Under the pieces are notes generated by a model. That model worked only from the letters and a program-made list of their open reading frames with translations, had not been told where the DNA came from and searched no databases. A DNA stretch of 64,000 bases from Streptomyces shenzhenensis (GTDB taxonomy: Bacteria; Actinomycetota; Actinomycetes; Streptomycetales; Streptomycetaceae). The position numbers were made by a program, and so were the translations under genes. Of the stretch, positions 22,300 to 46,890 are shown one piece after another (positions within the stretch are counted from its first letter, which is position 1; each line of letters begins with the position of its first letter). The stretch spans positions 186,001 to 250,000 of the forward strand of contig NZ_JAJONF010000008.1 of the NCBI RefSeq assembly GCF_021462265.1, read 5' to 3'.

Positions 22300-23910
22300 C
22301 TACTCGGCGGGCTCCACGCCCGCGCGCAGCAGGCCATAGGTGTACGCGTCCTCCAGGGCCTGCCAGGAGGCGGCGATGACGTTCTCCGCGACGCCCACCG
22401 TCGACCACTCGCCGCTGCCGTCGGAGGTGGAGATCAGCACGCGGGTGGTGGACTCGGTGCCGTGCTTGCCCTCCAGGATGCGGACCTTGTAGTCGACCAG
22501 GTCCAGCTTGGCGAGCTGCGGGTAGATCTTTTCGAGGGCCACCCGCAGGGCGCGGTCGAGGGCGTTGACCGGGCCGTTGCCCTCGGCCGTGGCGACGATG
22601 CGCTCGCTCTTGGCCCAGAGCTTGACCGTGGCCTCGTTGGCGTGGGTGCCGTCGGGGCGGTCCTCGACGATGGCCCGCCAGGACTCGACCCGGAAGTACG
22701 AGCGCGGCCTGCCCTCGACCTCGGCGCGCAGCAGGAGCTCGAAGGAGGCGTCGGCGGCCTCGTAGGTGTACCCCTGGAGCTCGCGTTCCTTGACTCGCTC
22801 CACCACCCGGCCGACCAGTTCACGGTCGCCGCCGAGGTCGACGCCGAGCTCCTTGCCCTTGAGCTCCACCGAGGCACGGCCGGCCATGTCGGAGACCAGC
22901 ATGCGCATGGTGTTGCCGACCAGGGCCGGATCGGTGTGCTGGTAGAGGTCGGGGTCGACCTTGATCGCGGAGGCGTGCAGGCCGGCCTTGTGCGCGAAGG
23001 CCGAGACTCCCACGTACGGCTGATGCGTCGAGGGCGTCAGGTTGACGACCTCGGCGATGGCGTGCGAGATACGGGTCATCTCGCGGAGCCGGCCCTCGGG
23101 CAGCACCTTCTTGCCGTACTTCAGCTCCAGGGCCGCGACCACCGGGAACAGGTTGGCGTTGCCGACCCGCTCGCCGTAGCCGTTCGCCGTGCACTGGACG
23201 TGGGTGGCGCCGGCGTCGACCGCGGCCAGGGTGTTGGCGACCGCGCAGCCGGTGTCGTCCTGGGCGTGGATGCCGAGCCGGGCCCCGGTGTCCGCGAGGA
23301 CGGTGGAGACGACAGCGTTGACCTGGGCGGGAAGCATGCCGCCGTTGGTGTCGCAGAGGACGACCACGTCGGCGCCGGCCTCGGCGGCGGCCCGGACGAC
23401 GGCCTTCGCGTACTCGGGGTTGGCGCGGTAGCCGTCGAAGAAGTGCTCGCAGTCGACGAAGACCCGGCGGCCCTGGTCCTTCAGGAAGGAGACCGTGTCG
23501 CGGACCATCTCCAGGTTCTCGTCCAGGGTGGTGCGCAGGGCCAGCTCGACATGCCGGTCGTGGGACTTGGCCACCAGGGTGATCACCGGGGCGCCGGACT
23601 CCAGCAGTGCTCTGACCTGGGGGTCCTCCGCCGCCTTGGCGTTCGCCCGGCGGGTGGCGCCGAAGGCGACCAGCTGGGCGTTCCTGAAGTCGATCTCCTG
23701 CTGGGCACGGGCGAAGAACTCGGTGTCCCGGGGGTTGGCGCCCGGCCAGCCGCCCTCGATGAAGCCCACCCCGAAGTCGTCCAGGTGCCGTGCGATGGCC
23801 AGCTTGTCCGCGACGGTGAGGTTGATGCCCTCGCGCTGGGCGCCGTCGCGCAGCGTGGTGTCGAAGACGTGGAACGAGTCGTCCAGCTCGTGGGTTTCCG
23901 TCTCGGTCAT
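22300..23910 (-). CDS. cimA: (R)-citramalate synthase
   Basis: A 536-residue homologue of citramalate synthase, which condenses acetyl-CoA and pyruvate to citramalate, the first step of a threonine-independent route to 2-ketobutyrate and isoleucine. The DRE-TIM catalytic domain shows FDTTLRDGAQREG, the VFVDCEHFFDGYR segment, the metal-site HAQDDTGCAVAN region and GYGERVGNANL. The C-terminal LeuA-dimer-like regulatory domain (about 400-530) ends before EPAE. The length and the GYGERVGNAN motif point to CimA rather than 2-isopropylmalate synthase. ATG 23910 lies about 10 bases after AGGAG. A leader peptide and a terminator precede it, so attenuation by isoleucine is inferred. Confidence 0.9.
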   Translation of the reverse strand: MTETETHELDDSFHVFDTTLRDGAQREGINLTVADKLAIARHLDDFGVGFIEGGWPGANPRDTEFFARAQQEIDFRNAQLVAFGATRRANAKAAEDPQVRALLESGAPVITLVAKSHDRHVELALRTTLDENLEMVRDTVSFLKDQGRRVFVDCEHFFDGYRANPEYAKAVVRAAAEAGADVVVLCDTNGGMLPAQVNAVVSTVLADTGARLGIHAQDDTGCAVANTLAAVDAGATHVQCTANGYGERVGNANLFPVVAALELKYGKKVLPEGRLREMTRISHAIAEVVNLTPSTHQPYVGVSAFAHKAGLHASAIKVDPDLYQHTDPALVGNTMRMLVSDMAGRASVELKGKELGVDLGGDRELVGRVVERVKERELQGYTYEAADASFELLLRAEVEGRPRSYFRVESWRAIVEDRPDGTHANEATVKLWAKSERIVATAEGNGPVNALDRALRVALEKIYPQLAKLDLVDYKVRILEGKHGTESTTRVLISTSDGSGEWSTVGVAENVIAASWQALEDAYTYGLLRAGVEPAE

Positions 23911-24019
23911 GGTCTCAAGGCTCCTGATGTCTTGTCTCGGTCGTACCGGAATGACCGGCTCCACCGTCCCTCCATGGTCCCTCGCGCTCGCCGTCCGGCT
24001 GTAGGTGGGCCGGAAAACG

Positions 24020-24045
24020 AAAAAACCCCTCGCGGGTGCGAGAGG
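24020..24045 (-). terminator. Attenuator terminator in the cimA leader
   Basis: On the minus strand a GC-rich stem (24038-24045 with 24026-24033, one mismatch, loop of 4) is followed by six T residues (24025-24020). Streptomyces rarely uses T-run terminators, so its position 110 bases upstream of cimA ATG marks it as an attenuator. Confidence 0.75.
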
Positions 24046-24100
24046 TCTGCGCGCGGGTCGAGGACGACGATGGCCACCCGTACCTGGTCGTACGTGGTGG

Positions 24101-24151
24101 TCACTGCGGACCGGCGCGCCTGCTGCCAATAATCGTGGCGAACGAGAGCAC
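24101..24151 (-). CDS. Putative cimA leader peptide with tandem ATT Ile codons
   Basis: A 16-codon frame starting GTG at 24151 encodes MLSFATIIGSRRAGPQ and stops at TGA 24101-24103. The two adjacent isoleucine codons are both ATT (24133-24128), a rare isoleucine codon in this GC-rich genome. The stop lies 55 bases upstream of the terminator stem, so a ribosome stalled at ATT-ATT would favour an alternative fold. The design mirrors the ilvB leader at 46849-46890. No clear ribosome site precedes GTG, which is the weak point. Confidence 0.6.
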   Translation of the reverse strand: MLSFATIIGSRRAGPQ

Positions 24152-24248
24152 GGAGGCAGTCTGGCACAGCCCCGCCCCCGGCTCACGCACCGTCTCAGGA
24201 TGCGGTCGCCGCCGAGGCACCGCATGAGACGCCAGCCGCGGCTGAAGG

Positions 24249-24323
24249 CTCACGACTCACGACTCACGACTCACGACTCACGGACGCGGCTCACGGCTCA
24301 CGGCTCACGGCTCACGGACGCGG
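24249..24323. repeat. Composite heptamer tandem repeat
   Basis: Four copies of CTCACGA (24249-24276) and CTCACGGACGCGG (24277-24289) are followed by three copies of CTCACGG (24290-24310) and again CTCACGGACGCGG (24311-24323). It lies in the gap between the cimA leader and the TetR gene. The stretch 24152-24492 holds this repeat and no recognisable gene. Confidence 0.9.
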
Positions 24324-24492: not shown

Positions 24493-25092
24493 TCAGGCGT
24501 CCGCGAACAGATCCGCCCGGAGGAACTCGCGCACATGGCCGAGGACCTGCGCGCGGTCCGTGCCGCGCAGCCCGATCGCCACATGGATGGAGAAGCCGTC
24601 GAGCAGGGCGCGCAGGCGGGCGGCGAACCGGTCGGGGTCGACGGGCCGGAACTCGCCGCGCGAGACGCCCTCCGCGAGCAGCGCCACCAGGTCACGGTGC
24701 CAGGCGCCCTCGATGGCGGCCTGCCGGTCGCGGGCCGTGTCGTCGGCGTTCTGCGAGCGGTTCCAGACCTCAAGCCAGAGGGTCCAGTGCGGGTCCCGGT
24801 GCCCGTCGGGCACGTACAGGTCGACGTAGGCGTCGAGGCGGGCGCGGGCGGTGCCGCGCCGGGTGAGCAGCCGGCCGCGCTCGGCGCCCAGCCGGCCCTC
24901 GCTCCACTCCAGGGTCTCCAGCAGCAGTTCGTCCTTGGAGTGGAAGTAGTAGAGGAGATGGCCGCTGCTCATGCCGACCTCGCGGCCGAGCGCGGCCATG
25001 GTCAGCTTCTCCAGGCCCCGTTCGGCGATCATCGACATGGCGGCGGCGAGCACGTCCTCGCGGGGCGGGGCCTGTCTGCGCCCACCGGCCAT
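24493..25092 (-). CDS. TetR-family transcriptional regulator
   Basis: A 199-residue TetR-type repressor. The N-terminal HTH reads DVLAAAMSMIAERGLEKLTMAALGREVGMSSGHLLYYFHSKDELL (about 13-57). The C-terminal ligand domain is longer and hydrophobic (WTLWLEVWNRSQNADDTARDR, GFSIHVAIGLRG). It resembles the class that controls nitrogen-compound catabolism and transport. It follows agmatine deiminase by 9 bases in the same direction and is the last gene of the urease/agmatine operon, so autoregulation of the whole operon is plausible. The ligand is unknown. Confidence 0.88.
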   Translation of the reverse strand: MAGGRRQAPPREDVLAAAMSMIAERGLEKLTMAALGREVGMSSGHLLYYFHSKDELLLETLEWSEGRLGAERGRLLTRRGTARARLDAYVDLYVPDGHRDPHWTLWLEVWNRSQNADDTARDRQAAIEGAWHRDLVALLAEGVSRGEFRPVDPDRFAARLRALLDGFSIHVAIGLRGTDRAQVLGHVREFLRADLFADA

Positions 25093-46760: not shown

Positions 46761-46794
46761 AAAAAACCCCTCGTGCCAAAAGGCAAGCGAGGGG
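46761..46794 (-). terminator. ilvB attenuator terminator
   Basis: On the minus strand the stem CCCCTCG-cTTGCC / GGCA-CGAGGGG (46794-46767, loop AAAA complement) is followed by TTTTTT (46766-46761), 75 bases upstream of ilvB. Confidence 0.85.
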
Positions 46795-46821
46795 AGCGCG
46801 CCGGTGTGGTCGCTGGGGTTT

Positions 46822-46837
46822 CCGGAGTCTTCTCCGG
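46822..46837 (-). promoter_or_regulatory. Pause-type hairpin in the ilvB leader
   Basis: CCGGAG-TCTT-CTCCGG forms a compact stem between the leader peptide stop and the terminator, where a pause or anti-antiterminator hairpin is expected. Confidence 0.5.
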
Positions 46838-46848
46838 TGGGTCCCAGC

Positions 46849-46890
46849 TCAGCCGACGCGCTGTCCAAGTACGAGGATTCGGGTGCGCAT
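46849..46890 (-). CDS. ilvB leader peptide
   Basis: ATG 46890 to TGA 46849 encodes MRTRILVLGQRVG. The adjacent Ile-Leu-Val-Leu codons are the stalling signal for branched-chain amino acid control. It is the same type of leader peptide known upstream of ilvB in Streptomyces. Confidence 0.85.
   Translation of the reverse strand: MRTRILVLGQRVG

Follow-up and report, generated by a model that had tools for sequence, protein, structure and literature searches.

A candidate isoleucine-responsive leader-peptide attenuator upstream of the citramalate synthase gene cimA in Streptomyces and related Actinobacteria

The citramalate synthase gene (cimA) on contig NZ_JAJONF010000008.1 of Streptomyces shenzhenensis is preceded by what is very likely an isoleucine-responsive leader-peptide transcription attenuator, sensing charged isoleucine tRNA. 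Two broad hallmarks of such a device were found: a short frame with Ile codons, in all 54 leaders that we could parse, and a predicted intrinsic terminator between leader and gene. Judged from its occurrence in relatives, the attenuator is conserved and probably functional. This kind of attenuator is already known, and cimA is a new gene for such control. A sequence-only reading of the window (the whole 64,000-nt stretch analyzed, G + C content 71%) had proposed isoleucine attenuation by ribosome stalling at a pair of ATT codons, and conservation of the ATT codons, the frame and two stems, P1 and T, supports this proposal. Stem P1, which was absent from that reading, is likely the switch. The features of the element, and of a related one in the window, are as follows.

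24158 to 24163, minus strand: -10-like hexamer CAGACT, ending 6 nt before the leader start, which would imply a leaderless transcript from near 24151.
24101 to 24151, minus strand: leader peptide frame MLSFATIIGSRRAGPQ and stop, GTG start, one of 38 distinct peptides in 54 loci.
24128 to 24133, minus strand: regulatory codons ATT ATT; at least one ATT at -16 to -6 of P1 in each of the 54 loci.
24109 to 24119, minus strand: 5' arm of P1, GCGCGCCGGTC, within the leader frame; covarying stem.
24074 to 24100, minus strand: P2 hairpin within the P1 loop, variable; from folding and covariation counts.
24049 to 24059, minus strand: 3' arm of P1, GACCCGCGCGC, abutting the terminator; covarying stem, gap 0 in 53 of 54 leaders (free-gap search).
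24020 to 24048, minus strand: predicted intrinsic terminator T, AGACCUCUCGC ACCC GCGAGGGGUUU, U-tract at 24025-24020; from folding, site scan and covariation.
22300 to 23910, minus strand: cimA, citramalate synthase, ATG at 23910, the presumed regulated gene; TIGR00977.
46761 to 46890, minus strand: ilvB leader of the same design (MRTRILVLGQRVG and stop, P1 abutting T), frame 46890-46849; a related element outside the cimA unit.

The 16-codon frame noticed earlier in front of cimA is real (24151-24101, minus strand; VLSFATIIGSRRAGPQ and stop), and could be refined: it starts with GTG, and no Shine-Dalgarno-like motif was found before this GTG. Since such a motif is missing and CAGACT ends 6 nt upstream of the start, the cimA leader mRNA is probably leaderless. 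The adjacent ATT ATT was present at 24133-24128 (minus strand), and ATT is as rare as had been supposed, with one occurrence among 5,912 codons, or among 190 Ile codons, in ten open reading frames of the window. The terminator with a six-T tail upstream of cimA was also recovered, as an 11-pair hairpin spanning 24048-24023 and followed by the six T (24025-24020). The identity of the gene was borne out by the TIGR00977 model (643.8 bits, cut-off 450); SCO5529 we take to be the cimA of S. coelicolor. One terminator-like site was found, compared with 0.3 expected in shuffled sequences, and the fold z-score was -3.33, both calculated from this one sequence. This single-sequence evidence is modest, so that the reality of the element was settled by its conservation in relatives. 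Upstream of the leader promoter there are 7-base repeats, GTGAGCC / GTGAGTC (24246-24316, minus strand). A second candidate leader, a frame at 23907-24167 with an IVVL run, was rejected because the run is altered elsewhere (ACC for ATC in L002, CATCGTGCC in L017).

To assess conservation, we inspected 61 cimA-type upstream regions, drawn from a search of 61 genomes. The element (-10 box, short frame with rare ATT, P1 and T) was found in 55 of these regions, belonging to 55 genomes and including all 37 genomes of the same genus, the S. shenzhenensis genome counted. The positives comprise 54 parsed leaders plus L010, which was counted by eye, the parser having missed it for the A-C pair at the outer end of its P1. 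The element was absent from six of the 61 regions, L032, L041, L050, L060, L052 and L043, and in L043 the contig ends there. L032, L041, L050 and L060 are diverged second cimA-like copies, and the other copy in those genomes has the leader.

The sequence-only reading had staked its claim on conservation in other species and on a transcription start upstream of the stem. At least one ATT was retained in 54 of the 54 parsed leaders, the frame, stop, stem and T-run were conserved across families, and the promoter, as predicted from sequence, lay upstream of the stem in all 54 loci. The Ile codons at -16 to -6 of P1 were 87 ATT and 14 ATC; the second one was sometimes ATC, and even ATG, one ATT always staying. 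Leaders started with GTG (39) or ATG (15), and a Shine-Dalgarno-like motif was seen in one of the 54. All 54 leaders had the hexamer nAnnnT 5–8 nt ahead of the leader start, versus 70 of the 710 remaining ATG/GTG triplets of these regions; the parser accepted leader frames only with a -10-like hexamer, a rule that cost none of the loci having P1 and T (54 of 54 kept). The layout agrees with what is described for S. lividans, where the mean distance from -10 box to start is 6.3 nt and 17% of the transcripts are leaderless (PMC8079986).

Insertions and deletions within the leaders pointed to two kinds of constraint. One nucleotide is missing after the Ile codons in L018, L021, L022, L023, L027, L028 and others, which turns the peptide tail SRRAGPQ into an SSAPVRSDH-like one and leaves the RNA arm GCGCGCCGGUC identical. 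Upstream of the Ile codons, L054 has lost a whole codon relative to L053, with the frame intact. Together, the frame-shifting tail indels with an unchanged P1 arm and the codon-sized upstream indel suggest that the constraint is on the frame as far as the Ile codons and on the RNA beyond them.

Covariation was examined in an alignment of 26 leaders, in which 24119-24109 pairs with 24059-24049 to form P1. For P1 and T together, 94.9% of the cells were paired, dropping to 31–56% in slid controls, and 24 cells were changed on both sides, compared with 6.3 (sd 2.1) in shuffles. The covariation is uneven: both-side changes hit four of the ten P1 pairs and one of the nine T pairs, and the number of pair types was not above that of the shuffles (13 vs 13.9). 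Three P1 pairs were invariant across the 26 leaders, and a C-C position within P1 was unpaired in 19 of them. P2 had 9 both-side-changed cells, versus 2.9 in shuffles, and 81.9% of its cells were paired. The P1 loop ranged from 4 to 57 nt, leaving no room for P2 in the short forms. A pairing of P1-loop pyrimidines with the right shoulder of T, suggestive by eye in same-genus loci, was discarded, having no room in the forms with a 4-nt loop (L049, L051).

In free RNA, P1 and T were predicted to form together, with a mean pairing of 0.90 for P1 (54 loci) and 0.96 for T (the 45 loci with a parsed stem; in the other nine the simple stem parser failed and gave no T value). The 5' arm of T was paired downstream with a mean of 0.98 and a minimum of 0.88 across all 54 leaders. 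Because both stems co-form, equilibrium pairing shows no switch. The terminator of the full-length E. coli trp leader, our control, also formed at 0.96, so that full-length folding does not discriminate and only the pairing before the 3' arm of T exists does. As a check for an anti-antiterminator, we calculated that the 5' arm of P1 is paired elsewhere with a mean of 0.62 before its partner exists.

The parser had set the position of P1 relative to T; this fixed spacing was later freed in a separate stem search, in which the one gap found measured 3 nt (L045). P1 and T overlapped by 0 nt in 45 leaders and by 1 nt in nine. The front edge of the ribosome was assumed to lie 12 nt beyond the first base of the A-site codon. 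With a ribosome on the first of the Ile codons that fall within 18 nt of P1, the first base left free would then be at -2 to +3 of P1 in all 54 leaders. By this calculated register, the structure would depend on ribosome position at all 54 loci. In 16 loci the stop codon is 23 nt into or past the P1 start, and in one it is 27 nt; there, a terminating ribosome would cover just part of the P1 arm.

A same-genus trp leader pattern was matched in five of 16 genomes, and E. coli trp (L201) served as the control instead. Computed before the terminator 3' arm is made, the terminator 5' arm of trp was paired upstream at 0.62 with the ribosome stalled on Trp; the value was 0.30 without a ribosome and 0.01 for a ribosome that had reached the stop. 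The corresponding value in the 54 stalled cimA leaders was 0.05 on average and 0.40 at most. Compared with the trp control, no classical shared-arm device was thus found: none of the 54 leaders gave a trp-type antiterminator with an arm in common with the terminator. Of the Corynebacterium glutamicum ilvBNC arrangement, the 54 leaders had the adjacency of the hairpins and lacked the shared boundary trinucleotide.

A classical attenuator with a T-sharing antiterminator that escaped us, for example because P1 slides into T or a pseudoknot forms, is unlikely but deserves some weight. Such a slide has its precedent in C. glutamicum ilvBNC, whose adjacent hairpins overlap at a GCC trinucleotide (PMC11857589); P1 could take one base of T in nine of the 54 cimA leaders, and the upstream pairing of 0.40 was reached in at least one. 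Against it stand the 45 leaders with zero overlap and the low mean pairing of the T 5' arm before its partner exists, 0.05 compared with 0.62 in stalled trp. Still less probable is that P1 acts as a pause or pro-termination hairpin, at which the polymerase waits for the ribosome and the switch is one of timing. The place of P1 immediately before T would suit such a role, and pausing is the role suggested for H1, a hairpin of C. glutamicum ilvBNC (PMC11857589), but the stall register spares P1 exactly at the Ile codons, a better fit to an antiterminator than to a general pause.

Binding of a protein or small molecule to P1/P2, with the peptide setting only the timing, would account for the strong conservation of P1. 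We consider it very improbable, as a loop of 4 to 57 nt is unlike a binding pocket and the window had no match to any Rfam family at the gathering score (riboswitch, T-box or other RNA). A slightly lower rank goes to the reading that T ends transcripts of the upstream gene or acts as a constant insulator, the frame being incidental. A TetR-type gene does lie upstream on the same strand (24493-25092, minus strand), but the frame, ATT, P1 and T are conserved together across families, what lies upstream of the promoter shows no likeness by eye, and P1 covaries. That GATTAT is a promoter -10 box and not Ile codons, although it is retained in the 30 cimA loci of one comparison, can be set aside almost entirely, since CATTAC (L045, L046) or ATCATTAC (L044, L049) replaces it elsewhere while the Ile codons and the frame persist.

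For the preferred reading, ribosome stalling at the Ile codons, we propose the following course of events, the broad mechanism being drawn from the leader anatomy and from relatives in which attenuation was measured (M. tuberculosis ilvB1 and C. glutamicum ilvBNC). When isoleucine is plentiful, the ribosome would run to the stop and cover or melt the 5' arm of P1; with this arm blocked, T would form and transcription would stop ~110 nt before cimA. When isoleucine is scarce, the ribosome would stall on ATT, placing its front edge at the base of P1, P1 would form, and RNA polymerase would read through T. P1 and the ribosome docked at its base might then hinder T from closing inside the exit channel of the polymerase. 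Antitermination would in this case come from crowding and not from alternative pairing, as suggested by P1 and T having no pairing bases in common. This is the least certain step, and we put its chances somewhat below even. For the ilvB leader of S. coelicolor, altering the candidate codons is described as leaving regulation unaffected (PMC1262725; primary source Craster 1999), a result that would count against stalling and that any model must face.

As in E. coli trp, a ribosome stalled on regulatory codons would decide on termination; in trp, however, antiterminator and terminator have a common arm, as computed in the control. The trp leader also has its own ribosome-binding site. The closest published relative of the predicted cimA leader is Corynebacterium ilvBNC, which likewise has a leader peptide with branched-chain codons and side-by-side antiterminator and terminator, a start codon one nucleotide from the transcript start, and an antiterminator that forms on ribosome pausing (PMC11857589). 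It differs in the GCC trinucleotide overlap and a proposed anti-antiterminator, whereas the cimA leaders have an overlap of 0–1 nt and Ile codons; its attenuation was measured with hairpin mutants (PMC11857589). In M. tuberculosis ilvB1, stalling at branched-chain amino acid (BCAA) codons picks antiterminator or terminator, as proposed here, and attenuation was measured with codon mutants; ilvB1 has reporter support, while the cimA leader is known from its sequence (PMC13236596). The Streptomyces leuS leader described in PMC1262725 combines a short Leu-rich peptide with an antiterminator and a terminator, and differs in its Leu codons and its tRNA synthetase gene.

The Streptomyces ilvB leader is alike in its leaderless peptide, its BCAA codons, located 7–16 nt upstream of P1, and the abutment of P1 on T, and differs in its Ile, Leu and Val codons (Ile alone in cimA), its gene and its terminator sequence. 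The ilvB leader that the earlier reading had placed in the same window was indeed found there (frame 46890-46849). It encodes a leaderless peptide with GTA and CTT codons, its P1 stands directly against T, and the peptide is one residue off the S. lividans IlvL given in Table 4 of PMC8079986. Among 30 ilvB leaders (L062-L091), ATT was present in 28 and GTA and CTT in all 30. We parsed 55 of 57 non-cimA leaders (50 ilvB regions and seven others), with a parser that accepted only leaders with a -10-like hexamer, with BCAA codons and with stems above set minimum scores; the gap between P1 and T was 0 in 46 of them, 1 in eight and 4 in one.

We built a covariance model from 26 cimA leaders and searched the class with a threshold of E 0.001 or better. 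In S. shenzhenensis itself, the second match was the ilvB leader (E 7.7e-4), which the cimA model had thereby recovered, and the third reached only 0.36. The model matched 158 of 296 class genomes and 75 of 114 genera, not always before cimA; a few of the matched genomes had also supplied training sequences. For 39 matches we identified the following gene, the cimA type being judged by an N-terminal motif: 32 were cimA-type, two ilvB (L162, L169), two leuS (L170, L180), one leuA (L168), one ilvA-type and one ACT-like. The 39 were chosen for diversity with second matches included, and 32 of 39 is not a random rate. With the weak ACT case L172 set aside, 38 of the 39 following genes were identifiable or cimA-like and belong to branched-chain or leucine metabolism. 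The ilvA-type gene, a threonine ammonia-lyase, follows the leader MQLHLMAIT and stop (L171). L172 has a leader, MFALVIIM and stop, with P1 and T before an ACT-like protein of 107 residues, whose ACT match is below the Pfam cut-off. Nine extra weak matches include full-length weaker ones in L152 (1018-1105, plus strand) and L181 (101-185, plus strand), where the main match is on the other strand.

Among the listed class genomes without a model match we followed 20, of which 11 have cimA, with a readable upstream region in ten. The element was seen by eye in three of these ten (L188, L193 and L194), showing that the model misses some; by eye, none was found in the other seven readable regions.

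Taken together, we tentatively suggest that Actinobacteria may use one attenuator design, with no bases common to switch stem and terminator, for ilvB and cimA, joined in some lineages by ilvA, leuA and leuS. P1 would be a strut that holds the ribosome, stalled on rare codons, close against the terminator base, and the ribosome itself, instead of an alternative pairing, would block terminator closing; we regard this general model as more doubtful than probable, roughly a one-in-three prospect.

As far as the available parts of the literature go, cimA is not among the genes with such elements. In the portion of PMC1262725 consulted, the Actinobacteria elements are those of ilvB, trp, trpS, leuS, leuA, cys and ileS, with cimA unnamed, and the eight S. 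lividans leader peptides in Table 4 of PMC8079986 do not include it. The words 'citramalate' and 'isopropylmalate' are absent from the main texts of PMC8269248 and PMC8914203. A search of titles and abstract openings in one open library gave, among the matches listed, no report pointing to a cimA attenuator.

In Streptomyces and relatives, cimA provides a threonine-independent route to isoleucine, and 2-oxobutyrate also feeds polyketide precursors. A conserved isoleucine attenuator on cimA would add a control point on the supply of 2-oxobutyrate, and it places cimA under one leader design alongside ilvB and, for some relatives, also ilvA, leuA and leuS. The abutting, non-overlapping hairpins and the precise ribosome register bear on the paradox reported for the ilvB leader of S. 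coelicolor, and the design may be a case of antitermination by the ribosome rather than by an alternative helix. If the isoleucine switch is true, an isoleucine pathway is probably turned on only when a shortage of isoleucine makes ribosomes stall.
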